Assembly (NCBI GenBank): GCA_964030475.1
Contig: CAXIPT010000011.1
Span: forward strand, 635,262 to 699,261
Reading direction: 5' to 3'
Source of the DNA: Tethya wilhelma
Lineage: Eukaryota > Porifera > Demospongiae > Tethyida > Tethyidae
DNA length: 64,000 bases
Part shown: in pieces, positions 1 through 51,844 of the stretch
Layout of the letters: each line of letters opens with the position of its first letter
Numbering within the stretch: position 1 is the first letter of the stretch
The notes under the pieces: generated by a model
The model's database searches: none
Seen by the model: only the letters and a program-made list of their open reading frames with translations
What the model was told of the DNA's origin: nothing
Translations under genes and position numbers: made by a program

Positions 1-3000
1 AACTTCGACTGACTTTCAATGAGCCCATCTTGAGCGTAAGAGTGTACGAATTGACTTTCCAAGATGCATTCAATGCCACCACATCTTACACTCTTGAAAC
101 CAGAGACGGTATGATCAATGCTCAATTTGTCACTGTAACTCTCGATCAGCTGGATACTAACACGCTTAAAGCTAGTGCAAACTTTGCAAAGACTGAAAAT
201 GACACTTTCTTGGTCCACAACAGTCTGGCTGCTTCAGACTTTACTCTTCCCTCAAACCCCGCTGAACCTAGAACTGATGGAGTTAATCCTCTTCAAGCAG
301 CTTTAGTTGCTCGCGATGTAACACCACCAACTTTGATAAGATTCATCACTCTGGACTTCAATGAGCTCATAATAGAGTTGCAATTCAGTGAGCCAGTCGA
401 TCCTAACAGTTATGATCCATCTCTAGTCACCATCCATTCAACCAGCTCTGGAGTGGGTACTTCATACACTTTGACTGGAGGTACTCCTTCTTTCAGTCCA
501 AATGACCCTCTTCTTACCACTCTAAGGATAGCTCTGTCAGACCAAGATGTGCTGAGTCTACAAAATGACTCCACCATTGCAATAACCAGAGTGAATACGT
601 ACATTGAACTTCAGACTGATGCTGTGAGTGATTTCAGTGACAATGGCGTTGCAGCCACTGGAAGAGAGCAAGCTCAAACCGTCCAGATTGATCGTTCTCC
701 TGCAGCTCTTGTAGGATTCACACTGGACATGAACAGCACAACTCTCAGCCTAACATTCAGCGATGTTGTTCTCTCGAGCACTTTCACTGCCACCGGTATA
801 ACTTTGCGAGGAGACACCCTTGGTGCAAACACTGATAGTACATACACACTCAGTGGAGGTAGCACAACAAGTCCCGATGGATATGTTATCGATTTGCCTT
901 TGGTTTTCCGAGATATTGAAAACATTCGGTTGAGACCTGGACTTGGTACAAGCATAGAAAATACCTTCATTGCCTTCGATAACATTGTGAATGACTTCAG
1001 CAATATTGGTGTTCTCCAAGCAGACGGTTTCCAAGCAACAGACTTTATTGCTGACATGATTCCTCCAACTCTAAACAACTTCACTCTCTCCATCGAGAAT
1101 GGCACTCTTGAGTTGTTCTTCTCTGAAATCATGGAGCCTGGAACTTACACACCATCTTTGTTCACTTTGCAATCTGCCTCAAATGATTCTGAAACTCTTT
1201 TTAACTCATATACCTTGACCGGAGGAGAAGCTCGCAGAGGAGTACCCAATACTGTAGTGACAGTCGATCTTTCACAAGCAGACATCAACGGTATAAAGAT
1301 GCAGGTTCTTCTCGGCACAGATGAGGCAAACACCTTCCTTGCTGTGCAAGATGGAGCCATCAGAGACACTGGAAATAACTCTGTTGTGCCAATACCTTCC
1401 GATGATGCATTCATGGTGTCTCTCCTACGACCTGACGTTGAACCTCCAGAACTTAGAGAAATTATTCTCGATCTTGACGAAGGAGCATTGCTTCTCGAAT
1501 TTTCCGAAGCCATCGATCCAACTGGTTTTGAATCCAGAATTAGAATCCAGAATGAACAAGTGCCTGGCACAGGTACTAGACTTGTCACTATTACTGATGC
1601 AACAGTTATCGCACAACCAGGCTCATCCATCATAGAGCTGAGTTTGTCCGACACCGTTTTGAGAGAACTTAAGACAAATGACGACATTGCAACATCACCA
1701 GCAAATACTTTTGTGAGACTTGATATCACTGGTGTGATGGACTATGCAGGTTTCCTACTGAATTCAACTCTAGGTGCTAATGTTGTGACACGACAAGTGA
1801 ATAATGTGACGATCGATACATCAGGTCCTCGTGTAGTTGCATCTTCTGTCGATCTCAATTCTGGTCTAGTTTCGATCACTTTTGACGAATTTGCTGATAT
1901 TAACTCGCTCAATGTGTCTGCTATATCAGTGATTAATGCTGACACCAGAGAAATCATTCTTGATCTCAGTGATCAAGTCATGGTGAATACAACCGAGAGT
2001 GGGAGAGTGGTTAACATTGTGTTACCACAATCTGATCTTAACACAATCAATTCGGCCGGTGCTGACAGAATAGCGCTATCATTATCAGACGGACTCATAC
2101 AAGATATCCTTAACAACAATTTCACGTCCATTGTTGTACTACCAGAAGTTAGTGAAGATGAAACACCGCCTGAACTGTCTGAGTGGGCTTTGGATTTGAA
2201 CAGTGGTCTCATAATGGTCACTTTCTCTGAAGCTATTCAAGCCGACAGTTTGAATGTGAGTCAAATCACACTGATAGACGCTCTAACACCAACTAGAAGA
2301 TTCCAACTAACATCGGCAAATGCTTCCACATCAGCTCTTGTCCTCTCAGTACAAATGACACCTGAGGAACTGAACAATCTTAAAGAATTGGCCAGTATTG
2401 GTATTAATCCTGTGCAAACCTATCTCCAGCTTGAAGCAGGAGCTGTTTCCGATCTGCGTGGAAATGCCATTGCCTTTATCCCACCCACAGTAGTCCTTAC
2501 CATCACACCCGATATAGTACCACCAGTCTTGAATGCATTTGCCTTCGAGTACACAAACAATGGTTTGGCACCTGTGGCATTGACGCTCACCTTCTCTGAG
2601 CCTGTTAACGCTTCCTCGCTCGATTTTGCCGGACTAGTCCTGCAGAATACTTCTGACGGAAGTGGTGCTGAATACACGCTCACAACCAGCATAGTGCCGG
2701 CCATTACTAGCATGGTTCTACCTATCACGCTCAGCAATGACGATCTTGCTGGAATTGCTACCGTCAATGGCCTTGGTACATCCACTGCCAACACATTCTT
2801 GAGTGTGACCACCTCTGCTATTACCGACATTTCCGGCGTGATGGTTGCAGCTAGGCCATCTTCGGCAGCAATTAATGTTACCCCGCCACTGGTCGATATG
2901 TCCCCACCTTCTCTAGTGTCGTTCACTTTCAATCTTGGAAGTGGAAACTTGACTTTCAGATTCTCTCAGGAAGTTGTAGCAGCCACCATCGACGCTACAA

Positions 3001-6000
3001 GACTCACTATACAGGCTGAAGAAACCAGTTCCGCAACTTCGTACACTTTCAGAGGAGGCAATGCCATTCAGGTGTCTCCAACTGTCGTCTATCTTCCTGC
3101 AAACCAGGAAGACATTTTTGGAATCAAGGGTGTTGTTGGTCTTGCATTCGACATCAATTCCACCTTCTTGTCCTTGGATGAAGGTTTCATACAAGATACT
3201 TCTGGACATATCAACTTTGCCATTCCTGCTAGCAATGCCTTGCAGGCATCTGAATACACACCAGAAGTCAATGAGCCTCCAAGACTAATAAGCTTTAGTG
3301 TCGATCTCACACCTGGTGAGCTGATACTGCTGACTTTCTCCGAACCTGTGCTAGGCTCTTCGCTGATGTTTAACCAGTTCACTCTTCAAGAATCTGCCTC
3401 CAACACTCCAGCTTTTTCATTCACCTTCTCGAGTGCCCAAACTGTCACAGAAAACGCAGCTATTGTCCCCATAGATCTCAGCTTTGCGGTGAGAGACATG
3501 ATCATATTGAATGATAACATCGCAACGTCCATTGCTGACACTTTCTTGACAATCACTGCAATGGCTGCTACAGATCGTGACGGAAATCCTGTCGTTCCTA
3601 TACCAGCTTCGAGCGCTCTTCCAGCTGCAAGTGTAGTAAGTGGCATGCAGCCACCATCCGTGAGTGAGTTCAATCTTAACCTCAACACAGGACAGCTGGA
3701 GATCATGTTTGATAAGTCCGTCGTGGCTGCATCATTCATGCTTCCGCTGTTTTCGCTCCGAGACAGTGATACATCTCCTACAGCTAACTACACACTTGTT
3801 TCAAGCTTGACTAACCCAGTGGGTACTATCAGCATGCTGACTGTTTCAATCAGTCTTGAAGACTTGAACAACATCAAGAGAGCTGATTTGTGTGACGGAA
3901 CTTTCGATTGCTTCCTCTACTATGAGGCTAATGCCTTCAGAGATGTGTTCAATATTGGCTCCTTGAATGAAAGTGAACAGGTGAACACCTATGTACCTGA
4001 TTCAGTGCCTCCAGAGCTGGTCAGTTTCTCTTCATTCAATATCGAAACTGGACAACTCGTACTGTCTTTCAACGAACCCATTAATGCTTCCACCTTCAAT
4101 CCAGCCAGCGTACAACTGCGATCTCTGTTTTCACTTGCAGACTCGCTGAGTTTGTATGCTCTCACGGGTGGATTTGCCACTGCAACGGAAAACAGCATAG
4201 TCATTCAACTTTCTCCAAGCGATCTTGCAGCTGTTCAAGTAGACCCTGAACTCTGTACGTGGAGAGGAAATTGCTACATATATCTCGCATCTGGCGCTGT
4301 CCAAGATCCAGCTGATAATCCTGTAGTGGAAACCCCTGAAAATCCTTCTCTCATAGTTGGTGACTTCCAAGATGACAACGAACCTCCATCACTAACTGAT
4401 TTCACATTGGATTTGGACAATGAGAGACTCTCTCTGACGTTCTCAGAAGCTGTTGATCCTCAGACTTTCGATCCCACGGGAATCACCTTCCTGAACCAAC
4501 CAAATGGAACTGAAGAGTACACCCTCACAGACAGTACCACTGAGAGCAATCCAGGAACCATCATCACTGTGTCTCTATCTCCAACAGATTCAAATGCTCT
4601 CAAAGCTTCTCCATTTGCCAATTCTCCTTCAAACACTTTCATATCTCTCAACTCCACTACCATTCAAGATCTTGCCTTCTCTCCTAACCCAGTTGCTGAG
4701 ATCAATTCCACAGCTGCAATTGGAGGTGAATTCTTAGGTGACAACACTCGGCCAACTTTGGTAGGTTTTGAACTTGATATGAACACAGACTACCTGACTC
4801 TTGTCTTTGATGAGCCAATTGATGTAGACAACATCAGATACAATGATATAACCATTGCCGGGTCTTTGAGTGGCTCACCATTCGTTAGACTGTCAAGTGG
4901 CACAATCATCTCAAGTACAATTGGCTCAACACACACTGTGGTAGTTGGCTTGAATGCCGCAGATATAGTCTCCCTGAAGACTTCACCTGCTATCGCAAAC
5001 AGTCCGGGTACAACCTTCCTCACAATCAACTCTGGCGCTTTCACCGACACTGCCTCGAATACAATTGATCAAGATCGTCGTGCTGTGACTGCTTTCAGTT
5101 TCGATACGACACCACCTAGGCTTACAAACTTTACCCTCAATATGGTCACTGGATTCTTGGATCTTACTTTCAATGATGTCGTCATTGCTAGTACCTTCAA
5201 CCCTCGGGGTATCGTTCTCCAGTCTAACGAGACTCGTATGGATACTGCCTACTACCGACTTACAGGTGTGAGTCACACAACTAGCCCAGATGGTTACGAG
5301 ATCTCTGTGAATCTGACGCAAATTGATGTTGATGGAATCAAGGCAGCTGGTAGGATTGGCGTCACAGTGGAAGAGACTTACATTACCATCCAGGGAGACG
5401 TGATAGATGATCCTTTTGGTGAAGACAATGTTGCCATTACAGATGGCAAAGCTCTTGTTGCTTCGGATGTGGTACCGGACGAAACTCCCGTTCAGCTTGA
5501 GAACTTTTATTTGGACGTGAATGTGGGTCTTTTGAGTCTCACGTTTGATGATGTGGTAGATCCAGAATCGTTCAATGTCAGTGGCATCACCATCCAGAAT
5601 AATGTGAACATCACTGAAGGCGAAAGTTACACACTTTCCGATAGCCCATTTGTGCGAGTTGCTACTGGCAATGTACTTAACATCAGTCTGTCATTTACCG
5701 ATCTAAATGGAGTCAAGTCCCTCCTCTCTCTTGGCACTACCATCAATGAAACCTTCCTTAGCCTGGCTAGCTTCACAGTGACTGATAGCTCTGGCAATTC
5801 TCTGAATGAAATACCAGCAGAGGATTCCATGCGAGCTTTCGGCTTTGTTCCTGATGACATTAGACCATCTTTGATATCATTTGTGCTGGATTTGAATCAA
5901 GCAACACTGATACTTACATTCTCAGAAACTGTAGATATTTTCAGAATCGATCCATCTGGTATAACACTGCAGAACACAGCTGGGGAAAATGTCACTGCAA

Positions 6001-9000
6001 CCATCACTTTTGCATCTGGAGTGCTAGCTACAACTCAGAATTCTGACATCATTCGAATTGGTATCCTAGATACAGACTTCACCACCATAACCAGCACTCC
6101 CAGCCTAGGGACTTTCACAAACAACACTTTCTTGTCAGTTCTCTCGTCAGCTTTCAGCGACACGAGTGGAAATAGACTTATTGCCATACCAACCACCTCT
6201 GCTCTACCAGCAACTGATGTTGTCATTGACAACACTCCACCCATGCTGCAAGGATTTGATTTCAGCCTCGATCAAGATACCATCACGCTCACATTCTCTG
6301 AAGCTGTCGACATTTCTACTCTTGATCCAACACAACTAGTAGTGCAAGAAAATGCCAATGCATCTGCAGGTGGTCTTACCTTACAACTGACTGGTGGAGA
6401 CACACGATTCATTGCCCCACAGGTTGTTGAAATTCAACTGGCTCTGGAAGATATCCGTTTCATCAAGTCTTCAGGCATTCTTGCAGCTAATCCTGCTAGT
6501 ACCTACATATCGATCAATTCAACCTTAGTAATGGATTATGGTGACAACATGGTCATTCCGATATCTTCAGAAACAGCCAGACCAGTTGCTACCTTTGCTG
6601 AAGATGAGTCTTCACCAACGCTGATTCGATTTGACCTTGATCTCACTAACGAAACAGCCATTGTGGAATTTGACGAACTTATTGATCCACAATCACCCAA
6701 CATCAGTCTAATCTCATTCATTAACAGTGCTACCCCTGCTAACGCCACCATCTTTGTACCATTGCTGTCTAGCTCTATAACAGTCCTGGACAACTTCACA
6801 ATCCAGATAAACTTTGGAACTGATGATCTGAATGCTCTCAAAGCTACACCCGGTTTTGGATTTGAGAATACGACCTTCCTCTATGTTGATTCCAATGCAG
6901 TGGTCGATATTTACGATAATCCATTCTCTCCACAAGTCATTGAAGTGACTGGCATTGCTGATGACACCATTCCTCCAGATCTTGTCTCATTCAGTCTTAA
7001 TTTCAACTCAAGTGAACTTTCACTAACATTCACTGAAACAGTTGATCCAAGCACTCTCAACGTTAGCATGATAACACTGCTCAATGATGTCAGTTTTGCA
7101 ATGAGCACAGAAACTGTCACTCTTGAAGACTCTGTTGCGATTTCTGGACCAAGTCCTGTCCTTGTACTCCAACTTGGACCGTCTGATGCAACAGAATTGA
7201 GAAGAATGCTTAATCTAGCCACTGATGAGAACAACACATACATTTCTCTTCAACCAGGTGTTGTGGAAGATATTTACGGTAACCCGAGCATGATTGCTTT
7301 CATGCCAGAGAGAGCTAGTGCAGTGTTTGATGATTTGTCAAGACCCATCCTGAGAGCTTTCGATTTGGACTTTGACAGCAATGAACTAGTCCTGTCTTTC
7401 TCGGAAGTAATAAATGCAAGCTCATTCGACCCAACTACTATTACACTACAGAACAGGATCTCAAATGCCACCATAATCCTGCCCCTTTCTGGCGCTTTAG
7501 TTCCGACTGAAAATGAAAGGATTCTACGAATCGGTCTAAATCCTGATGACCTTCTTGAACTTCAGACAAACCCTGAGATTGGAACTACAGCTACTAATAC
7601 CTTCCTCTTTTTAGAAACAGCTGGTGTATTCGATCTGAACGGATTCAACTCCACACCGATCTTTGAATCTTCAGCGCTCAGAGCTTTCAGAGTGATGGAA
7701 GACAACAGCCCGCCATCAATAGTCAACTTTGAGTACAATCTCTTCAACAATTCTATCACACTGTACTTTAATGAGCCTGTAAATGTGACGACCTTCGATG
7801 TCTTGAATATCACCCTGCTCAGCGCTCCTGAGAACGAAACGTCCAACTACACTCTAACTGGTGGAGATCTCTCTCAAGATTCACCAGATACGATAACTAT
7901 AACACGAAACAATGCAGATGAACTTGGGCTAGATTTGCTGACTGATCTTTGCACCAGACAGCGCAATTGTTACATCTCAGTGCTGCCTGGTCTTGTAGCT
8001 GACAATGCTGGCAATGAATTTGATGAGGAGAGAGTAATTCAAGCTGGCATCTTTATCATTGATTCGGTTAGACCACAACTGATCCGATTTGATTCCTTGA
8101 ATCTTAACACGGGTGTATTGAGACTAACACTAACAGAATCTATTAACCCAGCTACTGTGAGATTTGACCAACTGACTCTACAGAATCATTTCATCCAAGC
8201 AAGTGTTACTTCATCAATTACATTTACCGGAGGATCAGCAAGTGTGATAGGAAATGTGGTTGATTTGCAACTAACCACAAGTGATCTAAACGACATCAAG
8301 ACCAATTCAGCACTCTGTTCCACCCCTCTTGTATGCTGGATCACATTCACTGAAGACTTTGCAGAAGATACCACCACAAATCCTATCATCCCTCTAACTT
8401 CAGCAGACCTGGCTCAATTCAATAGCAACTACCAGCCACTAAACATCATTCCTGACACAACACCACCCATGTTTGTGGGATTTGATGTTGACTTCAACAC
8501 CAATAGTCTTGTTCTGGAGTTCAACGAGGCAATATCTCCAACCAGCTTCAATCCAAATGCCCTTACCTTTGTCTCTGATGAAAACAGCACCTATTCCTAC
8601 ACGCTACAAATTGTTGATTATTCTCTTGCAGATACAACAGTCACATCTTTCCTGAGACTGACTCTGACAAGCTCTGCCATCAATCAAATCAGAGGTGCTT
8701 GTCTCGACTCAACGACTGACTATGAATCATGCATTGGTGTCAATGGTACATCTACGTTCATCGTACTAGCAGAAGGTGTGGTCCAAGATATTCCCTTGTC
8801 TTTGGATTCCGAGCAAATTGTCGAACCAGCTCAAGTTAGGAACTTTGTCGAAGATAACACCAACCCTATACCTGTGACTTTTGTCGAACTAAACCTGAAT
8901 GCTTTCACAATGACTGTCCAGTTTAGTGAACCTGTTCAACTGCCTGTCAATCTGAGCTACTTCTCTCTTCAATCCAGCATGGATGGAGGCGAGAATATTA

Positions 9001-12000: not shown

Positions 12001-15000
12001 AAAATAACGAGAGTAGCCCAACGACCAGCTATACCATTACCGGTGGTGAAGTAACACAACCAGCCGAAGATATGATACTTCTTGAGCTGTCTGAATTTGA
12101 CTTGAACTCACTCAAAGCTGACATCAATCTCTTGACCTCCAGGAATGATACTTACCTCTCTTCAAGTGCACAACTTGTTGAAGATACAAGTGGAAATTCT
12201 GTCCGACCTGTAAGAAGAACTGATGCTTTACAGGCTTGCGATTATCGTCAAGATGCTGACAGACCTTACCTGATTGATGCTGAGCTCAATCTTAGCACGA
12301 ATGAACTTGTTTTGACATTCAACGAAACGGTGAATGCTTCAACTTTTGATCCAACTGCTATCACTATCCAAAATGATGCATTTAATGCAACCGTCAGCTA
12401 CCCACTTTCTGCAGAGAATCGAGTGATGGATGGACTAACACCAGTTGTGACTGTCCAACTCTCTATCCAAGATTTGTCATTCATTAAGAGTGAACCAGAT
12501 CTCTGTAATATCAACACTGATAACGTGAATATGTCTGATTGCTTTGTCACAAACTCTCAAGATCTTGTAGTGGACGTCCTTCAAATGCAAGCCATTGAAC
12601 GAAATGATTCCTCTTCGCTAGTTGTCCACCCTGTTGTGGGAGACACTCTTGGAGCTGTTCTTGAATCATTCAACTTTGATCTTGAGAATCGTACCATCAT
12701 GCTGACGTTTGACGACACCATGGACGCAGCGTCAGTCAATGCTTCAGCCATCACTTTCCAAAATCACATCAACCTACCGAACGCAATGTTCACACTTACT
12801 GGCGGGGAAGTGATCAATTCTACACAGCCTTACATCATAGCTCTACGACTTCTTGACAGTGATGTCATTAACTTGCTCTCCAATGATATCTGTGTAAGGC
12901 AAAGAGATTGCTATATCTCTGTGGACCAGTTCTTTGCCACTGACCAATTTGGCAACTTCTTGAGAGAGAGAACTGAAGTCTTGCTGGCTGCTGATCTTGA
13001 AATCGAAACCTCTCCACCTATGCTAATGAGTTTCACACTAGACTTTGAAGGGAAGAACATAACTCTTACATTCTCTACTGTAATAGACAGTGCAGTGAGA
13101 GGAAGAAACATCATTCTGGAATCTCTCGGTCGCAGGTGTAACATACCAACTGAACCTTCGTCTCCACAGTCCGATCAAGTGGACCACAGCTTTGCTGCAA
13201 ACAAAGAACTGTGTGATTGTTTGAAGTGTCTTGTGGGTGATCCATGTTTATCAATGGAAGAGGGCACTCATATCAGTACCAGTAATGTGCCTTCAGCTCC
13301 AGTCAATAATTTATGCGATGGCACATACAGGCGTGATACAACATCTCCCATTGTTAAAAGAACTGAGTTAGATGCAGCCAGTGACCTATTTTATGTTATG
13401 TTAGACGAACCTTTTGACGCACAATCTGTTGATGTTTCACAAGTCACGTTCTTCTCCAATTCTTCTGGAATGGTGGAAACTGTTCCGCTCACTGGAGGAG
13501 TTGTACTGAACATGACATGCTCTGCAACCATTAGTATCAATCTTACCAACTCTGATCTTAGGCTCCTGAAGCCAAGCCGACCAAATTATGTGACAATCTT
13601 GCCTGGTTTTGTAAACGATACATCTGGTAATGCTCTGAACGAAGCTTTCATCTTACCACTCATAACCATTCCTGATACTGCCCCTCTGAGATTGATATCT
13701 TTCAGCATTGATCTTAACGATGGTCAACTCAACTTGACCTTCAGTGATATCATTGATATTTCAACATTTGATATCAGAGCACTGACATTCCAAGATGATG
13801 AAACGGCTAATGTTACTTACCCTCTTTCGTCTGCCACCAACTTCACAACCTACGATAGCTACACTATCATTGTGTACATGAATCCCCTGGAATTGATTGA
13901 TTTGAAGACGGAACCAGGAATCGGAACAAACATCAATGACACGTATTTGAGAATCGCCGCCTTTGCTGTGGATGATTATCGTGAAGAAGACGTCTTAGCC
14001 ATCACAAACGGAAGAGCTATCCAAGCTTCGGCTGTGATAGAAGATACTACACCTCCTGAGATCACAGCTTTCGATCTGGACATGAATATTGGCGTGCTAT
14101 CAATTGTCTTCTCCGATTCAATGAACTTGGACACTTTCAACACATCTGGTCTTACTCTCCAAGCTGCTGAAAGTACTTCTGATCCTGATATGTACTATAC
14201 GCTAACTGGTGGAGAGGTTGTGAGAGATCCGACCGATACCAGCGTCCTGCTTGTCTCAATCACCGAGACAGACTTGAACAACATCAAGAGAAATATCTTC
14301 TTGGCTGTTTCTGACATGACGACACATCTCTCTGCCAGTGGAGACACAGGTGAAGATGCAGCATTCAACCCTCTTGTCCCCATATTGATGTCTAGTGCCG
14401 AGCCAGTTAGAACGTTCGTCAATGATTCTACTGGGCCATTCCTCAGAAACTTCAACCTTGATCTAAACACAGGTGTACTAAGACTCTTCTTCAATGAAAC
14501 TGTGAGACTCAGCTCGTACAATGCTAGTGGAGTTGCTCTTCAAAATGCTGCCAATGGCTCTCTTGCAAGTGAGAGATATATTCTTACTGGTGGCATGGTG
14601 CTTGGTACGAACGGTCCTAACGTGTTCATCATGTTGTCTCCATTTGATCTGAACTCTCTGAAATCAGTGTTCAATCTCGCAACAGTGAGATCTGACACGT
14701 ATCTGACACTTGATGCTATAGCTTTCACTGATATGAGTCTTAACGAAATCATGGTCATTGACACATTTGATGCAAGATTGGTTGATTTTGTGACACAAGA
14801 TGATACTGATCCAGTTCTGCGTGATTTCAGACTCAATCTTAACACGGGCACTCTGACATTCACATTCCCAGAGTTCGTAGATCCTAACACATTTATGCCA
14901 ATGGAAGGTCAGATCCAGAACACCATGGACGATAGTGACATTGCCTACACTCTAACAGGCGGTGAAGCTTCAAGCTACCTTGAAGTGCTTACCATTGAAC

Positions 15001-21000: not shown

Positions 21001-24000
21001 CCAGTACTGCTACAAGTTCCAACGGCCCTCTGGTTGACATTCAGCTATCGGATGAAGACTTTGATGAGATTACAAGACTAAGACTCTGTCAGACATCTCT
21101 TGAATGTTACATTACCATTGAAGATTTCACAGTTGACGATGTTTCTGGTCTACCAGTCGTAGAAGTGACGATTGATGAAGAAATCCGAGCTGACATGGTA
21201 CTTCCTGACCAGTCTCCACCACGTGCTGTGGAGTTTGTCTCTTTTGATCTCAGTGAAGGAAGATTGAACATCTCTTTCTCAGAAACTGTAGCAGTTGATT
21301 CTCTGAACGTCACAGCCTTGACTCTGCGATCTCTTTACGAAGACCCACTCCAATCTTACACTCTTACTGGAGGCACTACGAACAGCAGCGATGGAACTCT
21401 CATTGAGATTCTACTAACCGATGATGACCTGGATGAAATCAAGGAGAGACAATACCTGTGTGCAACACAAGGATCATGCTACATTACTTTCACAGCCGAT
21501 TTCATCACAGATACTGCTCCCCAGCCAAATCCAGTCATTCCACAGCAACTTGGAGATGCCCCTGGTCTTATCGCAATGAGGTTTGTTCAGGACGATGTTC
21601 AACCTGAATTGGATGAGTTCACGTTTAATACCGAAAATGGAACCATCATTTTCACTTTCAGTGAACCAGTGGACGTTGCTGTGATTGTGCCAAATGGTAT
21701 TCACATTCTAGAGTCACAAAACTCGACAAATTTCTACACCCTAACTGGAGGATCTGCTGGTATCCGAGCAACAGATATTGTCACCTTTACACTCAGTGAA
21801 GCTGACTTCAATGCCATCCGTGCTCTACCATATGCCAAGAATACAAGTAACACCTTCATAAGCATTGATATGTTTGCTATTCGAGATGTCGCTAGAGTGC
21901 CAAACTTCATTGTCCCTATACCGATGGACGCAGCTCTTCAAGCTGATCGATTTGTAGGAGACATGACACCACCAACTATCATCTCCTTCTCTTTGGACGT
22001 CAATAACGATCTTTTGGTGCTCACTTTCTCTGAAACTGTCCTCATATCATCTCTTGATGTTGCCACCATTAGCTTGTTCGGAAACATCTCTGTACCGGAA
22101 TCTTTTGTGCCTCTTACCGGAGGTATTGTGACACCAATTCCTCCAACAACCAATCCTGGCTCACAAATCATCCAAATCAACCTAACCCAGCCCGATATTG
22201 TCGCCATCAAGACCAACCCTCTTCTTGCACGGTCCTTGGAGTCTACCTGCTTGCAGGCTCTGCCTGGTCTTGCGCTGGATTCTGCTAACAACTCCATTGA
22301 TGCAGCTTCTCTGTGTGCCGATGTGCTTGTCTCTGATACAACCAGTATTAGACTGATATCCTACACCCTTGATGTGAATGTTGGTGAGCTCTTGCTCACC
22401 TTCAGTGACGTGGTTGATGCCAGCACCTTCAGAATGGACGCCATCACGATACAAGATGCAGAAGAGTCTGACCCAGCTAACCAATACACTCTCACCTCAT
22501 CCAGTACAGCTACAATGGTGGATGGCTATTACATCAACGTGACCATTGGACCTGTTGATCTCTTCAGGTTGAAGACCACGCCCAATGTAGCAACAAGCCT
22601 CAATACATCTTACCTGTCTCTGTTTGCGTTTGGATTGGACGACACTTATGGTGTGGACGTGTTAGCTATCACCAATGGAAAGGCTCTCCAAGCTAGCAAC
22701 TTCACTGAAGATGATGAAGCACCTGAATTTGTCTCTTTCGAATTGGACATGGATCTTGGAACACTTACGCTCGTGTTCAACGAGGCTGTAGATATCGAGA
22801 CACTTGCTGTAGAACAGCTTGTACTTCATTCAGCTAGAAACATCTCCACTGCTGGTTTGAACGATACCACTCTTAGCTCGTTCAGTTTGTCTGACGGAGT
22901 CATTGACCAATCGGAAGATGGACGAACAGTGACTATAACCATCACTGAAGATGATTTGAACCTCCTGAAGGCGAATGTTGAACTGGCTACCTCAGATATG
23001 GACACTTATCTTGAAATACCAACAAATGCTGTACAAGATGTTGTGGCTAATAACTTTACCAATACTCTTCTTGACATGGCTTTCCCAGTTCAAAACTTCA
23101 CTCAAGATGGCACTTCACCAATGCTCTTGTCTTTCTCACTGGATGTCAACTCTGGTGTTCTTAACTTGACCTTTGATGAAACTGTCAATGCAAGCTCTTT
23201 GGACGTTTCACAGATCACCTTCCAGAACAGACGATCAGCAAATGTTTTCACCATCATGTATACCCTCAATTGTAGCACAGTATCTCTATTCAATGAACCC
23301 ACGTTGGAAATTGAACTCTGTGCTGACGATCTTAATTCGCTCAAGGTTGCTAGGCAACTAGCAATTGACATGGAATCAACTTACATCTCTGTTACTCCTG
23401 AGCTAGTCTTGGATATGAACAACAATTCTGTTGTGTCTATTCCAACTTCTAGCTCTCTCATTTCTCTTGAGCTGACACCAGATACAACACGACCTCAGCT
23501 ATTGAACTTCACATTTGATCGTGATGCAGGAGAATTTGACCTAACATTTGACGAAGTTATCGATTTCGAAGTGTTTGACTTCACACAAATCACCATAGCC
23601 AATTCGACCTCAACCAACGGGGCACTATTCCACACTCTGCTTGAAAGTGGTACAATATCCCCCACGAGTGTCAACTACCGCCCGGTCTATACCGTACAAC
23701 CAACAGAAAATGATTTGAATGACATCAAACGTATACTGGGACTTGCTACAGATGTGAACAACACCTACATCATTTTCACCAACCAGACTACCCAGGATTA
23801 CTCGGCTAATATTGTCTACGAAGTTGACGATGGCTTTGGCATCCAAGCCCTGGATGTGACTCTAGATGACCAGCCACCCGAGCTGTTTTCTTTTATTTTC
23901 GACGCCAATAGTGGAACACTAACACTCATTTTTACCGAAGTCGTGTTAGCTTCGTCACTCAATGTAACGCGGATCACATTTGTTGATTCAATGATGCCAG

Positions 24001-27000
24001 TGACCAACTATACACTGACTGGAGGTGACGTGTCAATGGAGAATGATCTCACTGTTGTGGTCAATCTGACTGAGTTTGATCAAAATGCTATCAAAGTGGA
24101 TCGAATGCTAGCATCTAATAGAAACAACACCTATCTTGATCTTGATGCAAACACTGTGTTTGATACTGCTGGTAATGGGCTGGAGAGGTTCATGCTGCCT
24201 ATGTTTGTATTCCAATACATTGATGATATAACAAGACCACAGCTAATCTCCTGGAACATCTCGATCAATGAAGGAGAAATCTATCTTCTCTTCACAGAAG
24301 CAGTCGACCAACTCACTCTCGATGCAACCGTGCTCAGATTCCAGAATACTAACTCTTCTGACACGGAAACCGAGTTCTATTTCTTGACATCTGACAGCTT
24401 CAGTAATAGCTCTGATGGAATTGAGCTGGTAGTAACACTCAGTAGACTCGACCTCGATTCACTGAAAGATTTCACAAGGTTAGTGACCCAGGTTGAAGAC
24501 GCCTACCTCTCTTTCTTTAGAACTTTCATCAGAGATATGGCAGGAAACTTGATAAGAACCATCCCTGAATTCAGAGCTCTACAAGCCGACTTTGTGTTCC
24601 CTGATGTGACCAGGCCAGAGCTTGCTTCATTCGACTTCCTCCTTGAAGAGAGTTTGATCATTCTAAACTTCACGGAAACTATTAACCCAGCTACCATCAA
24701 TATTACCGACATAACCTTGCAGAATTCTCAGAGCATGCCTACTCGATTCTTCCAGGTAACTTCCACCAGCCGTTACAACAGAACGAGCAACTTCTCCATG
24801 GTGGAAGTGTACCTGAGTCTTTCTGATCTCAATACCATCAAGAGTTTTAGCGATCTGGGTACGTTTGAGAACAACACGTACATTACTATTGAAACTACTT
24901 TTGCTGAAGATAGAAGTGACAATGAAATTGTACCCATCCTGAGTAACAATGCTCTGCGAGTTTCTGAATTTGGTTTTGATGGCATCCCACCTGAACTTGT
25001 TTCGTTCCAAATCGACTTCACTCACGCCAACTTCACGCTTTCTTTCACTGAAACGGTGAACATCAGTAGTCTTGATTTGACCCAGATCACACTGTTGGAT
25101 AAACCTCAGCCGCTTACAAACTTCAACTACACTCTGACTGGTGGCGTACCTACAGACAATGAGACATCTAGCGACGTTCTGGTGATCAATCTGCTCAAAC
25201 AAGACCGCGACCAAATTGCCCGTATTTCAAATCTCTGCACCAATGCAAGCAACTGTTACATTTCATTTACTGAGCTACTTGTGAACGATACAATGGAGAA
25301 TCAAGTAATACCTATCAGCAAAGAAGATGCTAGGGAGCCTATTGAATACACTCCAGACACTTCACCAACGTTTGTCACGGAGTTTACCGAGTTTGATCTA
25401 AACAGTGGTCTACTGACCATCCTCTTCGAAGAGGTCATTGATGCAGCCACTGTTGATGTGACCTCTCTGCGACTTCAAGACTTTCTCATCTCGCCACGAT
25501 TCTCAGTAATCCTCACGGGAGGTGATGTTCTCTCCACCAACGACACCACGGTGATCATTTTGGCAACTAATGACGATCTGAACATCATCAAAGCTGAGCC
25601 TAATCTTTGCACTAGTCCTAACAACTGTCATCTTAGGCTTATGTCAACATTTGCTAATGATACGTTTGGTAATCCCATAAGACCTGTCGAGGATACACAG
25701 ATCTTGAGTGAATCTTTCACTCCAAGACTTGAACCAGATGTTACTCCACCATCACTGGATTCTTGGGATATTGATTTGACAAACGAGACCATTACGCTGT
25801 ATTTCAACGAGACTGTTGAGTACACCGTGTTTGAGTCAAGATTTATTACACTCCAGAATGCTGAATCCAATTCCACCGTCAGATTCCAGCTCCAGAATGA
25901 TATCGATCACACATCTCAGAGACTTCCAGTCATCCAATTCACAATCTTTGATTCTCCCATGTTTGACGACTCGGATGTTGTCTTCATCAAAGCGTTCGAA
26001 GATCTTGCTACTTCGGAGAACAACACTTTCATCACCTTCACATCACAGTTGGTCACAGACACCAGCTCAAACCCTGTAGCACCACTTACAGCAGACGAAG
26101 GCCTTCAAGTGGACAGATTCACGAGAGATAGCATCCCACCTGAGTTGATTTCTTTCAGCAGACTGGACATGAATGTGGGAGCTCTCACCCTATCTTTCTC
26201 GGAGCCCGTGAACATCAGTTCAATCGAGTTTGACCAGATTACCCTCCACAACAACAGTTTAGGAGATGGTGTGTATAATCTCACAGGAGGCAATGTCTCC
26301 TACATCACCACCACAAAGGAGCGAATCTTAATCACCTTCAGTGATGCCGATTTGAGACAGATCAAGCTGCGTCAAGATCTAGCAGCCGATCGTGACTCGT
26401 CCTTCATTTCGTTCACAGAGGGAATGATTCTTGACATGGCAGGAAATGCTGTAGTGAGTGGAAATCCAGTTATTGCAGTACCAAGCTCAGCTCCTGAACA
26501 AGTCCTTCCTGGTGGCTATATACCTGACACCACAAGTCCGATCATTCTCAGATATGAACTCGATATGAACACGGCTGAATTGATACTAACATTTGATGAT
26601 GTGATTGACGTAAGAACACTTGTGCCTAGATTCATCACCTTCCAAAACGACACTGGTGCTTTGTTTGTCCTAGACGAATTCAATTCTTACACTCTTGCAA
26701 GAGGTTCTAGCTCCTCTCCCGATCAGTACGTCATCACGATTGATATCGACGAGATGGACCTCAACGAACTCAAGATGAGAGACCAGTTAGCTACAAACGA
26801 GACCAACATGTTCATCTCTCTCCAAGCAGCTACTGTCAGTGATGTTGCAGGTTCTCCCGTAAGACCTATTTTAGCTGCAAGCGCGTTGATGGCTGCCGAG
26901 TTTAGACCTGACGTTACTCGACCAGAATTGGTGCGATTCTCTGTCAATCTCACAACACAGGTTGTGTTGTTTGAGTTTGACGAAGCTGTGGATGTAACCT

Positions 27001-30000
27001 CTTTCGATCTGACGCAAGTAACGCTTCAGAATCAGCAAAATATTGATGATGTAACTGAGAATTACACCCTGACTGGTGGTGTGAAGACTCCACCCTTTAC
27101 AGCTGTTATGGTACAAGTGGCACTCACCAAATTCGATCTTGACAACCTTAAGGCGCTGACCATGCTTGCAACAGAGCAGAATTCAACCTATCTCTACCTG
27201 CCTGAGACTGCCGTGCTGGATATGAATGGAAATCCGATCGTTCCAATCAATAGCTCCTTTGCGCAGAGAGCTTCTTCTCTTACAGCTGACATGACAGCAC
27301 CTACTTTAGTGCAGTACTGTCTAGATCTTGATAGTCCATCTTTCTTGGAGCTAACATTTTCAGAGACTGTGAACGTGACTTCTCTGGACCCAACACTCAT
27401 TTCTCTTCAGAACACAGCCATGCTGCCTACCTCACAGTACACACTTACAGGAGGCAATGTGACCACCGAGAATGAGATTATTGTCAGGATTTTCCTCACT
27501 CTTGAAGATTCCAACGAAATCAAACGCCTCAGGAGCCTAGCCAACTCTGAAAGCAGCACATACATCCGATTCCTCAGAGGCATGGTGTATGATAATAATG
27601 CACGTAACCCCATCATGGCTGTGGACAGCATGAATGCCATTCTTGTCAATGAGACCTGCTACACAAGTGATACCACACCACCAACTCTGAACTCTTTTGA
27701 CATCAATCTCAGCAATGACTCACTAACTCTCTACTTCTCAGAAACAGTGAGTGTCCTTGAGTTCAATTTCACCGGGATTACACTCATTGGTGGACGCAGT
27801 CGTTTCTCAGCTCAGAGACAACTTATTGGAGGCGAGCTGCAAACTGGTGACAGCCATATTGTTGTCTTCACTCTGACGTTTGAAGATGCCAACTTTGTTA
27901 AGAATGTGTCAGAACTTTTCACGACTGTGTCAAATGCGTTTATTCTCCTGGACAATAGCACTGTGATTGATATGAACGCTAACGCGATTGAGACCATACT
28001 TGCTCCCGATGCTGTTCAAGCTGCTCAACTGTTTAATGATAGCATCAGTCCCGAGTTAGTGTCATTTGATCTTGATCTTAACACTGGTGAACTAACACTC
28101 TCATTCACTGAAACAGTTAATGTCGAATCACTTGATGTAACGCAAATCAGACTACATGATAACCAACTAACTCTTCAACACACTCTAACCAATGAGTCCT
28201 ACTCTTCAAGTCCCAATGGACCTGTTGTCGTGGTTACCATCTCTGATTCAGATCTAAATCGAATCAAACAAATCATCACTCTAGCCACAAATGAGAACAA
28301 CACGTACATCTCATTCACCGATTCCACAATCTCTGATACCTCACTGAATCCAGTGATTGAGATACTAACACCAGAACGTGTCAATCGTTACATCTACGAT
28401 GAAACTTCACCAAGGCTGATATCTTTCCGCCTGGATATGGTAAACACTGTTCCACCTCTGCTCATTGTACTGACATTCAGTGAAACTGTGCGTGCAAGTT
28501 CTGTTGATCCGACACAATTCCAACTTCGTACTGGACCAAATGAATCCAGCACTTCTTTCAATCTTACTTCAGGCAACGTAACAATGCTTGATTCAACAGA
28601 GATCACGATTACTGTGACTTCTGAAGATCTGGAAGAAATCCGTGCACCCATGCGCCAACCTCTGGGCTTTGACATTGACACCACATATCTTGCTCTGACT
28701 AGTTCTGCTCTTGTAGACATGGCTGGTCGTTTGGTCGAGCCTATTACCACCACAGCTCAACGAGCTAGCAGAAATGATGCCGATCTCCGTCCACCATTCT
28801 TGGATGCTTTCAGTTTCAACTTGAATGACGGAACGATTGTACTCACTTTCTCTGAAAACGTGACCTTTGACACTCTCAACATTTCCAGAGTGAGCCTACA
28901 AGACGACGAATTCCAACCTTTCTTGAACTTCACTCTCGGAGAGAACACGACAGCTGAGGCTCTCAATGGCAGAGAAATTGAGCTTACTCTCTCACTAGAA
29001 GAACTCAATCGCCTCAAAGAATTTGTCGGTCTAGCTATCTCACCCGATTCCACTTTTATCTCCTTGGAAGCTAACGTCATCAACGACATTGCTGGCAATG
29101 ATGCCCTGCCTGGTGTGAGAGGAGTGTCAGAATATACTGGTGACACTACAAGACCAAGACTGGATGCTTTCGACCTCAATATTCAGACCAGACAACTGAC
29201 CTTCTACTTCTCAGAAACGGTCAACGTCAGCTCATTCGATCCTACTGGTGTCATACTAGTGAATGAGGCCAATGGAGAAACCAGACATAGACTTACTGGC
29301 GGATTTGTTCTCACACGTGAAGACGGTCCAGTAGTCACACTTAGTGTTCTCCTGGCTGACAAGAATGTAGTCAAGTCTCTGCCTAACTTAGCCGTGTCCA
29401 ACGACACCACTTATATCATCCTGAGATCTACAACTGTGTACGATAATGCTGGCAACCGCTTACAACAGATTGTGGCTAGCAATGCAAGACAAGTTCAAAC
29501 ATACATTGGTGATGCAGACAGACCTTTCTTACAGTCTTTCGATCTTGACATGAACGAAGGCTTGCTTGTCTTGAACTTTAGTGAAACGGTGAATGTATCC
29601 ACTCTACTTCTTGAAAGATTCTTGCTCCAAGATAATGCCACCCAGATTGAGATCAACCACACTCTTACATCAAGTGAAGTGCAGCCAGAAAATGCAGCAC
29701 TTGTCGTTGTCACCATCAGCATGCCTGACTTGAATGAGATCAAACGCAAACAGCTCTGTTACTCTCCAGAAATTTGCTACCTCACGTTTGAAGATGATGC
29801 AGTGAGAGACATGGTGGATATGTCGATTGAAGGAGTACCGGATGGAGAGGCACTTCAGGTGAGCGGTTTTGTCAACGATAGCACAGGTCCTGAAATTGCC
29901 GAGTTCACGCAGTTTGATCTTAATGCTGGAATGATCAGGATATCCTTCACTGAAACCGTCAATGCATCAACACTGAACATTGCTGCCATTACACTAATGG

Positions 30001-33000
30001 ATCTCTTTGAAACCAATCTTGCCAACTACACTCTGACTGGTGGCTTCACTAACGACACTGACAGCAATATCATCACTTTCACGCTAGAGCCATCTGATCT
30101 GAGAATCATACAAGCAAACAACTTCCTGTGCACACACAGAGGAAACTGCTACATCACATTCACTTCAAACTTTGTCCAAGACATGGTCGGCAATCGTGTT
30201 GTTGCCGTTAGTAACCAGCCACCTGGCTTCATTGTAAGAACTCTCGGACGAGATGAAATGCAACCTGAGCTTGAAAGCTTCAGTCTTGATCTCGACCAAG
30301 GAACACTCAACCTGACTTTCAATGAACCTGTGATAGCCTCATCTCTTGATCCAACAGGCATTACAATCCTTGGAGAAGCAAATACCACTGATACTGCTCT
30401 CTATTACACTCTAACTGGTGGTCAAACTGACAGCCTTGATGATCCAGTCATCACTGTCAGGTTAGACGAGAGAGACTTGAATGCAATCAAAGCTTCCATT
30501 TTTGCCAAAGATGCAAACAGCACTTTCATTGCTATCGAAGCAACTACCATCACAGACAATGCCTTTACACCTAATCCTGTTATCCCAGTCACAAGAGAAG
30601 AAGCAATTCCATTGCTTGAAGAGGACTTCATTCCTGATACCACTGCACCAATGCTCTTCCAATACACTCTTGACATGGACAGTGATCTGCTCACCCTGAC
30701 ATTCAATGAGCCAGTCGATCCTACGTCTGTTGACTGCGGAGGAATAACACTCTCTAACACCTCTTCTACTGGTCAAGCCGAGTATTCTCTGACTGGTTGT
30801 GAAATCTCCTACAGTGAAATGGTCAGTGGTTTCCTAGAAATCCGTATAGAACTTGTAAGACCTGATATCACAGCTTTGAAGGTCGACCGGGACTTTGCAA
30901 CTTCACGCGATAACACTTTCATCTCATTCCCGTCAGCTTCATTCAATGATACAGCCGGGAATGCAGTCACATCAGTCAATTTCAGAAGGGTAGATACCTA
31001 CATACCAGATCAGACAAGACCAGAACTTTTGAATTTCACCTACGACCAAAATATCGGACAAATTATTCTCACTTTCAGTGATGTGGTGAATCCAATGACA
31101 TTTGACGCAAGAGCAATCACTCTTCAGCACGCCATTTCACGAGAAACTGGTCGTGTGTTCACTGCAAGTGCTGAAAGTACAACATCCAGTCCAAACGGCT
31201 ACATCATTGTGGTCGATCTGTCCCATTTCGATCTGCTGAGGCTGAAATCCAACACTGGACTTGCTAGAGATGAAAATGACACCTACATCACCATTGCAGC
31301 ATTCCTGATTGAAGACACAGCAGGTATTAACATCGTACCCATAACAGATAGAAGAGCAGTGAGGACTGAACTTTTTATACCAGATGATGTGTCCCCGGTC
31401 CTTCTCAACTACACCATGGATATGAACCTGGGCCAAATCACGCTGACTTTCTCTGACACTGTGAACATCACGATATTCAATTCCTCTGGTCTAACAATAC
31501 AAGAAACAGCTAATGTTTCCAGTGCTTATTTCACAAACATCTTGACTCTAAGTGGAGGAGAAGCTCAAATTTCTTCAGATGCACTGCAAGTGACTTTGAA
31601 CATCTCGATCGATGATTTGAATGAGCTCAAACGTAACACCAACTTGAGCACCTCGCCTGAAAACACCTTCCTTGTTGTCGAAGAAGGTACCATCACAGAC
31701 CTGGCTGGAAATGACGTGGTAGCTGTTCTGAACAGTGAAGCAGTTCCACCGAGGGAATTCATTGTAGATGGGATACCTCCAACTCTAGAGTCTTTCGATC
31801 TTGACATGAATAGTGAAATAATCTTCCTGACTTTTGACGAAACTGTCAATGCTGAGAGCATCAATGTGACCGAATTCACTCTCCAAAACAGTGTCTCTTC
31901 ATCAGTGTACTATACCATCAGTTCTGATTCAAGTGCTTCCACAGATAACAGCACTGTTGTGGAAATTTACCTGGCTATGAGTGATATCAATGCCATTAAC
32001 AGGCTCCGAACTCTAGCCACTTCTGAAGAAGACACATACTTATCGTTTACCGAGATGGCGATTGCTGACATGAACTCAAATAGTGTAGCTCCCATTGCTA
32101 ACATGTCTGCCCAGCCTGTTTTCAACTTCACAAGAGATTCAACTGCACCTGTGTTGCTATCTTATGATGTGAATCTCGACACTGAACTTATCACTTTCAA
32201 TTTCAGTGAGGTTATGGACTATGCAAGCTTCAACCCAGCTGAGTTGATTCTGCTCTCTACAAATGATTCCAATTTGAGCAATCTAACACGTTTGACACCA
32301 GTGCAAGGCCGTGTTAGACCTGTAGATGATACCATTCTGATTCTTGAGATTGATACTGATGTGCTCAACGAAATCAAGAGACTGTACAGTCTCTATAGAG
32401 ACGAGGATACGACTTTCATTGCATTTGGACCAGGTCTTGTTACAGATACTTTCAACAACTCTGTCGTGAACATCACTGAAGCTGACCCACTCCAAGTAAG
32501 CACCTTCACTGCTGATGCAACTCCACCTACGTTTGAGAATTTCACTCTCGACATGAACGAAGGAGTTCTGAGTATCACCTTTGACGAAACAGTGAATGCT
32601 TCCTCGTTTGAAATCACCTCGGTAACGGTCCAAAGCAGTGATATGTCACCAGTTGAACAATACCAGCTACAGTCTAGCACATCTTCAGACAATGACAGCA
32701 CTGTCTTGTTCATCTACCTCAGCCAATTTGATCTTGACTCTATTAAGCTGAGCACAATGCTTGCGACTGATGAAAACAACACATACATTAGTCTGGCCTC
32801 AGGTGCTGTTTACGACATGAACAGAAATGTTTTTGCTGGAGATACACTTCGAGGTGAACACATCCCAGATCTGACACCACCTCAGCTGGTAGACTTTGTG
32901 TTTGATTTGAACACTGGAATGATTGTCTTGAATTTCACTGAAGCAATCAACGCTAGCAGCTTGAACGTTTCTGGACTGATATTCTATGCAAGCAACGACA

Positions 33001-36000
33001 CTGTGTCCAGTTCCAATTCTTCGTATCAGCTTACACTCTCTAGTGAAACACTCAGCTTGAGCGGCAAAATTATCAATGTGACAATCTCCGATGACGATTT
33101 GAATGCCATCAAAGCTGATTTCGATCTTGCTACTGATGATTTCAACACCTACCTCGCAGTCGAACCTTTCACTATCTTTGATATGAACGATAATGCCATC
33201 AGTCCAATTCCAGTTCCACAGCAAGTGGATATTTTTGTTCCAGATACCACAGATCCAGAACTTACTGGAGCCATATTTGACTTCAATGGCGGACTACTAA
33301 TGCTAACTTTCTCTGAAACAGTGAACGCAGACACTTTTGATCCAACTCAAATCGTTCTGCAAAATGATGACATGAATCCGCCAGCCAATCTGAGCATCCA
33401 AGGCTCAAGTTACACTCCTGAAAACTCTACCGAGATTGTGCTAACTCTTACTGAGTACGAGCTGAATCAGCTCAAAGGTCTGACAAACTTTTTCAGAAAC
33501 AGGCTAGAAGCTTACATTTCTCTGACTAACATCACAGTAGAGGACATGAGTGGTAACCCGATTGTTGCTATACCAACCAGTAATGCTTTTATGCTTGACA
33601 ATGTCATCACTGATGATGTTGATCCTCAGTTGATTGAATTTGATCTTGATCTTAACACGGGCCTGCTCACAATAAGATTCAGTGAAACCATTGATCAGGA
33701 TAGATTCAACACCTCCCTGATCTGGCTACAAGACCGTGAGTACAACTTTACTGTAGAATTTTCACCATCTGGTGTTGCTGATATTCAGTGGAATCTGACT
33801 GTTGTGGAAATCGAGTTGACCTTTAACGATCTCAATTCCATCAAGCTGAACGAGATGCTAGCCATCGACAATACCACAGTGTATCTCAGATTTGTTAACA
33901 CGACAGCTTTTGATACCACTGGCAATCCTCTAGTTGCTCTGAATGACACACAAGGCATACCAGTGACACTATTTACACCTGATGTTACCCAACCAACACT
34001 CAGAGATTTTGATCTCGATATGAACTCACCACAGCTCTTGGTACTCACGTTCTCTGAGCCTGTTAGAGCCGATAGTTTTGACTTCACCACCATCACACTT
34101 CAGTCGGCATCCAACATCACTGCTAACGATACAGAGTATTACACTCTCACAAATGGAACAGTTCTGAGCGAAAATGGCCTAGAAATCACCATAGATCTTG
34201 ATTTTATAGACGTAGTGAGCATTCAATCGAGACGGTCGCTTGCAAACGCCACTGCATTCACTCACATCTCTCTCGAAGATGGCACTGTGTTGGACATGAA
34301 CAATAATCCATCTGTGAATGTGTCTGATGAGGCAGCCAGACCTGTCTCCCTCTACACCCCCGATACCACACGCCCTGAGTTTGAATTCTTCTCAATCGAT
34401 CTTGACTCTGGACTTCTTTCTCTCACGTACTCAGAGTCCATGGACTCGGCGAGTGTCAGCAATGGCATCCATCTTCTACAGAGAGAGCCAAGAGCTACAG
34501 ATTTCAGTAACAGTATCAGGTTTGAAGGTGGACTGGAGACAAGCGCTCTAGACTGGTACATTATCAACATCACTCTGTCATTTGAACAGCTAAACAGCAT
34601 CAAATTGCTCGCCCCAAACAACTTCTTTGTGGACAATTCGACTTCTTTCTACAGCAATGGCTTCTCTAATAGCAACCCTCGTCCAGTTGACACAGCAGGC
34701 CAAGCAGTCGATGATATTTCAAACGTTGATCCTATCCAAATTTCAGAGTATGTACGAGACGAAACACAGCCACGTTTGATTGACTTCCAACTAGATGCAC
34801 GTGGTACTGATGCAGTTGTTACTCTGGAATTTTCAGAGCCTGTCTTGACCGATTCCTTTGAGCCAACTCTGATTCAAATCCACAATACAGCACTGAATGA
34901 CACTTCTGATCCTATTGTACCACTGAGTGGAGGTGTGCTCAATACGACAATGAATGGTCTAATTTTTGAACTGATCCTAGTTCCTGACGATTTCAATCTC
35001 TTGAAAAGCTTGCCTGATATTGCCAACAGTGTGGATGACACATACATCTTCTTGAGGTCTGGAGCTGTGACTGATGTGTATGGAAATGATATAGATGAAC
35101 AGAATGGAATGACAGTTCGAGCCAGTTTGGTGCGTCCCGATAATACCCATCCTGAACTGGACGCATTTGTGTTTGACCTCAACACTGGTACCATCACACT
35201 GACTTTTAGTGAAACTGTAAATGCTTCCACTTTCGATATCACTGAACTCACACTCCAGTCTCACGCCAATAACTCGCAATACTCGTACCAGCTTACTGGT
35301 GGAGTGAACTCTTTGCTCAATCAACCCATTGTCACTGTCAATTTGACCACTGACGATCTGAATGCCATAAAGGAGATTCGCGGATTGGCCACCATGTTTG
35401 AAAACACCTTCATTTCCATCACTTCGGATGCAGTCAATGATATTGTCGGTTTCAATCTGACCGAGATCCCTGAAGACTCCGCTCTTGGTGTCCTTCCTGG
35501 CGATTTCATACAAGACATGACTCGCCCAATTCTCCTAAATTTCACACTGAATCTAACCTTCGAAGAACTGACCCTGACTTTTGACGAGACTGTGTCGTAC
35601 AATGATACAGTGTTCACGCTATTCACCCTCCAGTCTGCTGAAAACAGTAGCACTGTGTCGCTAACGTCAACCTCCTCTGTGTCCAGTAATGATTCCACAA
35701 TCATTACAATCTTCTTGAGCACCAATGATCTCAACAACATCAAGTTAGACACAACTCTGGCGACTCGCACAACCAACACTCAACTACAACTCAATCCTGG
35801 TGCCATCACAGATATGGCTGGCAATACCAACATGGAACAGCTGCTGGATGCTCTCAACTTCTTTGCAGATTTTGTTTCTCCTTCGCTCGTGAACTATCTG
35901 TTTGATCTCAATGATGGTCTTGTCCTGCTGAACTTTGACGAAGTCGTGAATGCTTCAAGTCTAAATATTGCTGGACTCAGTTTCATGGACATGCCAAATG

Positions 36001-51340: not shown

Positions 51341-51397
51341 GAGATTGAAAAGGGTTATAATTATATGTCTTGCTATAATCTCCCGCCCCCCAGGCCC

Positions 51398-51620
51398 TGA
51401 AGCTGTGTGTACGCTTTTAATAGTGCGAGCTTTAGTGAGTGGATTCAGCAATTCAGTTTCTAGTGCTCTTTTCAAACACGAACTGGCGTACATTTTGGGA
51501 CAGATGAAAACGAAGCGGCCATTTCTGGACTTAGAGAAAGATTGGGAGATTTGTGCGAGAATCCTATGGTTAGACACGAGTGTGCTGAAGCTCTTGGTTC
51601 GATTGCTAGTGAAGAGTGTT
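51398..51620 (+). pseudogene. DOHH: DOHH fragment, broken
   Basis: This matches about 43110-43320 of the intact gene and includes the codons of the third and fourth His-Glu dyads. It is broken by extra bases near 51420-51455 and by a one-base deletion in an A-run near 51509, which shifts the frame. Both ends are replaced by other sequence. It lies upstream of the second SETD2 copy, just as the intact DOHH lies upstream of the first, so it is the remnant of the paired gene. Confidence 0.85.
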
Positions 51621-51795: not shown

Positions 51796-51844
51796 TTGCT
51801 TACTTGCACGCATGCGCAATAGCGGTAAATTCACTTCCACTTGG

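Follow-up and report, generated by a model that had tools for sequence, protein, structure and literature searches.

A giant, intron-poor gene of the sponge Tethya wilhelma predicted to encode a secreted chain of Ig-like modules in blocks of 23

The window (the whole 64,000-nucleotide stretch of Tethya wilhelma DNA that was analysed) carries the last 30% of a gene whose product is probably a secreted, thread-like glycoprotein of 335 modules, likely a µm-long extracellular scaffold with cysteine landmarks. As read from the sequence, the gene is intron-poor, conserved and old, and the predicted protein would be larger than titin. Coordinates are those of the window, with negative values lying to its left; adding 635261 gives the position on contig C11, which is 2.82 Mb long in an assembly of 124.6 Mb and 204 contigs.

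Extent of the giant exon

Between positions 3 and 38378 of the plus strand, the window holds a single open frame of 12,791 residues whose sole stop is the terminal one; the five other frames of this interval contain 306 to 1,216 stops. A module profile (length 124, built from 147 modules) detects 103 Ig-like modules of about 124 residues each in this frame, 101 of them near full length. When 181 kb of the locus is compared with itself (megablast, word 16), a single match is returned at E <= 1e-10, so the modules are strongly diverged at the DNA level. An 85-residue stretch with cysteines inside the array (13110-13364) has no match to the module profile.

The right end of the protein looks genuine: the same tail ends the relative P0121, and module matches in the 35 kb examined to the right of 38378 all score 3.5 bits or less. 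A C-terminal anchor beyond 38378 was considered and rejected, no coding continuation being seen in three frames read to 39800. To the left, the window's frame continues to -10233, for an ORF total of 16,203 residues. The array then extends in another frame from -10220 to -58162 (15,981 residues), and its leftmost ORF runs from -58107 to -88925 (10,273 residues). The three ORFs contain 131, 129 and 82 module matches, window-side first (342 in sum), and together comprise 42,457 codons without an internal stop. To the left of the window, the module matches in ORFs A and B leave no gap over 40 residues, and there are no N bases between -147408 and 45481. Because this coding run, with two breaks, reaches -88915, the window represents approximately 30% of the exon (Table 1).

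The splice acceptor AACTCAAAACAG stands before the start of exon 3. Upstream, exon 2 encodes a predicted signal peptide, and its GT/AG splice sites keep the phase of exon 3; joining the exon 1 candidate, exon 2 and exon 3 in phase gives MAPRSRNRKALTMSGLLEVAILLAVFSGMARAQAPTLMG. From the first ATG to the stop there is a whole number of codons, 41,689, if a tandem copy described below is counted once and a one-base shift is undone (keeping both copies in frame would give 42,460). Counted in this way, the product comprises about 41,700 residues, with 335 modules in 14.6 blocks of 23. The chain is acidic (pI 4.05) and lysine-poor, and is predicted to be N-glycosylated: sequons number 212, 341 and 387, versus 140, 241 and 236 expected (means of 20 shuffles). 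Sequons are also phased within the block, although barely so: none of 2000 shuffles attains the observed 100.8, the highest giving 98.1.

A preliminary description, made from the letters of the window, had reported a stop-free, intron-free 38.4-kb frame still open at its left edge, composed of about 103 modules of about 125 residues that differ strongly at the DNA level. All of this agrees with the results above: the one stop is at the end of the frame, the profile count is the same, megablast finds one self-match and the coding run reaches far to the left. The suggested look upstream for a signal-peptide exon yielded the predicted exon 2, and the view that the exon is among the largest in animals was too modest, given 127,294 bp as assembled against about 17-22 kb for the longest human coding exons (TTN, MUC16). 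Selection on an intron-poor giant exon of Ig-like modules, which had also been proposed, is supported as well.

Table 1. Features of the giant locus, its surroundings and the third array
Feature	Position	Strand	Remarks
Whole exon 3	-88915..38378; C11:546346-673639	+	127,294 bp with stop, as assembled
3' part of giant exon 3	1..38378	+	
Open frame, open at left edge	3..38375	+	103 Ig-like modules
Stop codon	38376..38378	+	protein end conserved in relative P0121
Signal-peptide exon 2 (predicted)	-90083..-90010	+	splice sites read by eye
Candidate exon 1	-90482..-90466	+	splice sites read by eye
Tandem copies	-60473..-58161 and -58159..-55847	+	flank the first frame break
Second frame break	-10233..-10220	+	
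Cysteine-pair modules, block 11, positions 13-14	3651..4379	+	
Cysteine-pair modules, block 12, positions 1-2	7710..8459	+	
Cysteine-pair modules, block 12, positions 13-14	12264..12971	+	
Cysteine-pair modules, block 13, positions 1-2	16287..16991	+	
Cysteine-pair modules, block 13, positions 13-14	20847..21545	+	
Cysteine-pair modules, block 14, positions 1-2	24987..25706	+	
Cysteine-pair modules, block 14, positions 13-14	29523..30218	+	
Last, partial block 15	33624..38345	+	positions 1-2 without cysteine pairs
Divergent gene M	-140367..-91702; C11:494894-543559	-	16,221 residues, 133 modules
Third array	C2:3032943-3080164		ORFs of 9,141, 2,792, 2,287, 1,074 and 836 residues
Neighbour ORF	42524-43444		HEAT-repeat
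Neighbour ORF	45968-47173		PHD-finger-like
Neighbour ORF	51276-52112		PARP-like
Neighbour ORF	56447-57058		Med26/TFIIS-like

Two frame breaks

The first break lies between two tandem copies of 2313 bp that are 96.6% identical, ungapped and separated by one base. Fifty-eight of their 78 differences are at third codon positions, and the differing codons comprise 57 synonymous and 21 nonsynonymous cases, apparently as between alleles of a constrained gene. We take the copy to be either a second haplotype assembled behind the first or a very recent duplication; at this place the relative P0132 carries the six modules once, the window's gene twice. An intron at this break (a weak in-frame GT...TAG pair noted by eye) was rejected, since the duplication ends at exactly the base where the frame breaks. 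The second break is a one-base shift within one module, and both P0138 and P0158 read across it. A case of the same type is found in a relative, in which P0140 ends at module 277 and P0122 begins at module 279; these two ORFs, on contigs of 263,480 bases each, meet with a break. If both breaks are assembly faults or very recent events, as we infer, the three ORFs would be one protein.

Two or three genes, making separate proteins of approximately 10,000, 16,000 and 16,200 residues, or a gene in decay, would also account for breaks that are, after all, present in the assembly and have a parallel between P0140 and P0122. We regard this as quite unlikely: the first break falls exactly at the end of a duplication absent from P0132, the second splits a single module that two relatives read through, and the 23-module register described below spans both breaks only when the copy and the split module are each counted once. 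Decay does not fit 42,457 codons without an internal stop.

Near-identical tandem copies and one-base breaks commonly arise as assembly errors, and a further rival is an artefact, or a scaffold from a contaminant, in which case the animal would lack the gene. This is extremely improbable, as the same module order is present for most of the array in relatives on many separate contigs (including those of named sponges), the base composition is that of the host and the locus is gap-free. GC3 is 0.41-0.42 over the arrays versus 0.47 in the neighbouring HEAT-repeat gene. The preliminary description had named a bacterial contaminant misjoined to animal DNA as the finding that would overturn it; contamination appears unlikely because of this host-like GC3, the predicted spliced 5' exons and the relatives in named sponges.

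A period of 23 modules

When the modules are compared with one another in their assembled order, the top offset is 23 (score of 276, where the best of 200 shuffles gives 63), with further peaks at 116, 139, 237, 260 and 283. In a corrected order of 335 modules, with the six duplicated modules and the split module each counted once, the 12 best offsets (23, 46, 69, 92, 115, 161, 138, 207, 184, 230, 253 and 276) are all multiples of 23. The null maximum is then 53 (200 shuffles), and the non-multiples exceeding it (81, 58, 11, 35 and 80, with scores of 60-71) are each a multiple of 23 with 11 or 12 added. Both the tandem copy and the split module had been found beforehand, and the correction was made after the uncorrected peaks had been seen: it is therefore a consistency check and not a blind test, while the period itself is independent of it. 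The result supports the reading that the copy would not be ancestral and that the three ORFs would belong to one gene.

Cysteines follow the same register. In each of the 14 full blocks, the modules at positions 1, 2, 13 and 14 carry at least two cysteines (56 of 56), whereas at least one cysteine is present in 17 of the 266 other modules and at least two in 12 of 266; this phase effect was reached by 0 of 2000 shuffles. The two modules at positions 1-2 of the partial block 15 have no cysteine pair (0 of 2). We predict one disulfide per cysteine-pair module. Paired cysteine modules 11 and 12 apart are visible in orthologs, including those of Corticium and P0126.

Among the 82 relatives with at least 40 modules, the top period is significant and equal to 23 in 29 (including Corticium P0125 and the transcript P0126), is significant with another value in 13 and is not significant in 40. 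P0197 has a strong period of 14 modules (664 versus a null maximum of 195) and P0150 one of 4 modules (283 versus 128).

Relatives and age

The named relatives among the matches listed are 11 proteins of Geodia barretti, Dysidea avara, Ephydatia muelleri, Oopsacas minuta and Corticium candelabrum; the majority of rows carry no organism label. UC4_evm1s733 (P0062) is also among the relatives listed, and shares a register with neither giant gene (z of -0.6 and 0.3). In PMC6792448, the name UC4 is given to a single-cell genome from an uncultured choanoflagellate. The longest relative among the matches listed has 7,987 residues, although 17,498 were allowed; this ceiling below 8,000 suggests that the database caps protein length, and because of this apparent limit a second 40,000-residue frame would go unseen.

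Several relatives have their modules in the same order as the plus-strand gene. Best-hit steps are colinear in 51 of 51 cases for P0121, 59/59 for P0134, 59/61 for P0138, 54/55 for P0158, 55/58 for P0132 and 48/62 for P0122; proteins of named sponges give 9/9 and 8/8 (Geodia barretti P0002 and P0085) and 6/8 (Ephydatia P0087). Orthologous runs cover modules 1-60, 67-131, 130-185, 164-226, 198-254, 221-277 and 279-341, leaving out 61-66 and 278. Colinearity with gene M is seen in P0127 (58/58), P0129 (48/48) and the Dysidea proteins P0128 (37/59) and P0147 (37/49). P0136, P0137, P0142, P0163, P0189 and others are colinear with neither gene and are apparently further members of the family. P0191, a protein of 7,677 aa from a metagenome contig, has 46 modules and approximately one N-X-S/T sequon, a density of 0.01 per 100 residues compared with 0.45 to 3.4 in the remaining relatives listed.

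For Corticium P0125, only 3 of 49 best-hit steps are in order. Its register is clear all the same (z of 31, matched by 0 of 200 shuffles), with identities of 39-40% in register, 36-37% one block off and 31-33% at other shifts. The same 23-module phase is found in P0126, a eukprot transcript of 7,574 residues that we do not count as choanoflagellate; against P0140 its absolute position is weak (33.1% in register, 31.7% one block off and 28.9-30.1% at other shifts). Corticium candelabrum LOC134193700 (6,290 residues) and Geodia barretti GBAR_LOCUS9168 (1,384 residues) are orthologous stretches in the same register, and neither record gives a function. The duplication of 23-module blocks seems to predate the split between demosponges and homoscleromorphs, and amplification in place, as first suggested from the window, is supported in the form of this old block duplication. 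Such a gene is described in none of the titles and abstract openings listed from open-licence PMC literature.

Gene M, a third array and neighbouring ORFs

Gene M is head to head with the plus-strand gene, their starts being 1.2 kb apart if the candidate start of the latter is used. It is an uninterrupted ORF of 48.7 kb, from a predicted signal peptide to the stop, and its ends match relatives. Its cysteine-pair modules are mostly 18 or 19 modules from one another, two glycine-serine-rich inserts lie between modules, and there is a weak period of 37 (61 versus a null maximum of 49). P0141, its Corticium counterpart, and LOC134193700 are on contigs of 6,372,292 bases for both. A search of the sponge's own genome (94 of 281 candidates scored) gave 144 matches, all in the giant locus or at C2:3034419-3080164. 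The far end of the C2 array has TIG domains and a Calx-beta-like match (25.6 versus a cut-off of 27 bits). Oopsacas P0059 also has TIG domains, and its tail is similar to that of the C2 array.

To the right of the exon, the HEAT-repeat protein resembles deoxyhypusine hydroxylase; the PHD-finger-like and PARP-like matches are both under cut-off. To the left of the window, ORFs at -206857 to -204263 (plus strand) and -145825 to -143444 (minus strand) contain the P-loop motif GLAGVGKTCLK, and ORFs left of and between these two have a common tail like FGELKPQHTIWLT. Together they appear to recall NLR-type genes.

Predicted fold and related proteins

An AlphaFold2 model of the module has an Ig-like fold (pLDDT of 95-96), a beta-sandwich that resembles solved Ig-like domains. 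The nearest folds are bacterial, the SbsC S-layer and Big_5 Ig-like domains, with weak profile similarity to the modules and identities of only 14-17%, below the curated cut-off. In a Pfam scan of the window's 12,791 residues nothing reaches cut-off; the best family is Big_5 (PF13205), at 21.1 versus 23.6 bits for ORF residues 1-3000, with no match in the rest of the window ORF at E <= 1 or 0.01. Six of 60 single modules match Big_5 at E <= 0.1. The likeness to bacterial Ig-like repeats noted earlier therefore holds for the fold, which is the nearest, and falls short for Big_5 itself, which stays below its cut-off.

The same earlier note had gone on to a possible bacterial origin followed by amplification in place. 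In such a scenario, a giant adhesin or S-layer-like gene would have been transferred to a sponge ancestor and then amplified. Fold resemblance is what speaks for this, and we find it improbable. A scan of prokaryote genomes with a single protein as query, which reaches close relatives only, gave no relative; a profile search of PDB sequences gave none either (best E of 0.29), and 11 of the relatives listed bear sponge names and one the UC4 label (most being without an organism). Viral contigs likewise gave no relative.

Titin (connectin) is likewise a giant built from Ig-like modules. It, too, groups them into higher-order blocks, of 7 and 11 in the A-band, and its gene includes a very long exon, TTN exon 327, of about 17 kb. 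Proteins of its family have Ig I-set and FN3 modules and a kinase, and are cytoplasmic. Pfam detects no I-set, FN3 or kinase domain among the 12,791 residues encoded in the window, and the sponge gene has a predicted signal peptide, in contrast to cytoplasmic titin. PKZILLA-1 of Prymnesium parvum, the product of an intron-poor giant gene, has about 45,000 residues and is thus comparable in size, although it is a polyketide synthase without Ig-like modules. TTN exon 327 is named as an A-band exon in PMC9845391. The highest query TM among the 50 Foldseek matches listed (0.54 to one module) belongs to FMG1B of Chlamydomonas (PDB 9gos), a flagellar-surface glycoprotein with 3,878 residues in that entry; the match is weak (E of 0.2, rank 18 of the 50), and no FMG1B sequence match was obtained in PDB searches with residues 1-2000 or with the profile.

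Proposed role

From this architecture, we read the product as an extracellular scaffold fibre. An Ig module is 4-4.5 nm long. Lying end to end, the modules would form a thread of about 1.3-1.5 µm, in which 23 modules would span about 100 nm and 11-12 modules would place a cysteine landmark about every 50 nm. These landmarks may be sites at which chains or partners are joined, as along a ruler, and the product of the plus-strand gene may be the larger partner of that of gene M.

A protein of the mesohyl matrix or of aggregation, used in the manner of sponge aggregation factors and not in a cell-surface apparatus, is a possible alternative that we nevertheless hold to be on the unlikely side. 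The chain is predicted to be secreted, acidic (pI 4.05) and rich in glycosylation signals. Calx-beta, VWD and Wreath are domains of sponge aggregation factors, and in the C2 family locus the terminal TIG domains are accompanied by a Calx-beta-like stretch that narrowly misses its cut-off. On the other hand, Pfam detects no aggregation-factor domain, neither Calx-beta nor VWD, in the 12,791 residues of the window's ORF, and the relative P0062 comes from a choanoflagellate single-cell genome, choanoflagellates having no mesohyl.

The scaffold fibre could be specified further as the long-sought filament of the choanocyte vane (or collar mesh): a pre-animal giant with a 23-module ruler of approximately 100 nm whose disulfide modules form the nodes of the mesh, and, among animals, the largest protein and longest coding exon known. 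This is speculative and unlikely as it stands. For the flagellar vane in particular, which we rate as similarly doubtful, the size, glycosylation signals and distribution fit, a fit in size being weak evidence. In PMC9671500, vane filaments of Salpingoeca rosetta are extracellular, approximately 3.5 nm thick and thought to be carbohydrate or glycoprotein; at approximately 80 nm from the membrane they branch to form a diamond mesh, and they often reach beyond tomograms approximately 1.2 µm wide. Against the vane, proteinase K left that of Salpingoeca rosetta in place (PMC9671500). Sponge choanocytes have vanes, with modelled widths of 0.3-1.4 µm in PMC7755389, and PMC9671500 did not settle, as of 2022, what the choanoflagellate vane consists of.

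Because the 23-module block and its cysteine positions are kept in demosponges and a homoscleromorph, conservation points to selection that may act on the thread as a whole, its length and its spacing, beyond the module alone. If the frame is confirmed, an animal without muscle would have an exon of approximately 125 kb and a protein larger than titin, and cell biologists would have a concrete candidate for the extracellular fibres of feeding cells.
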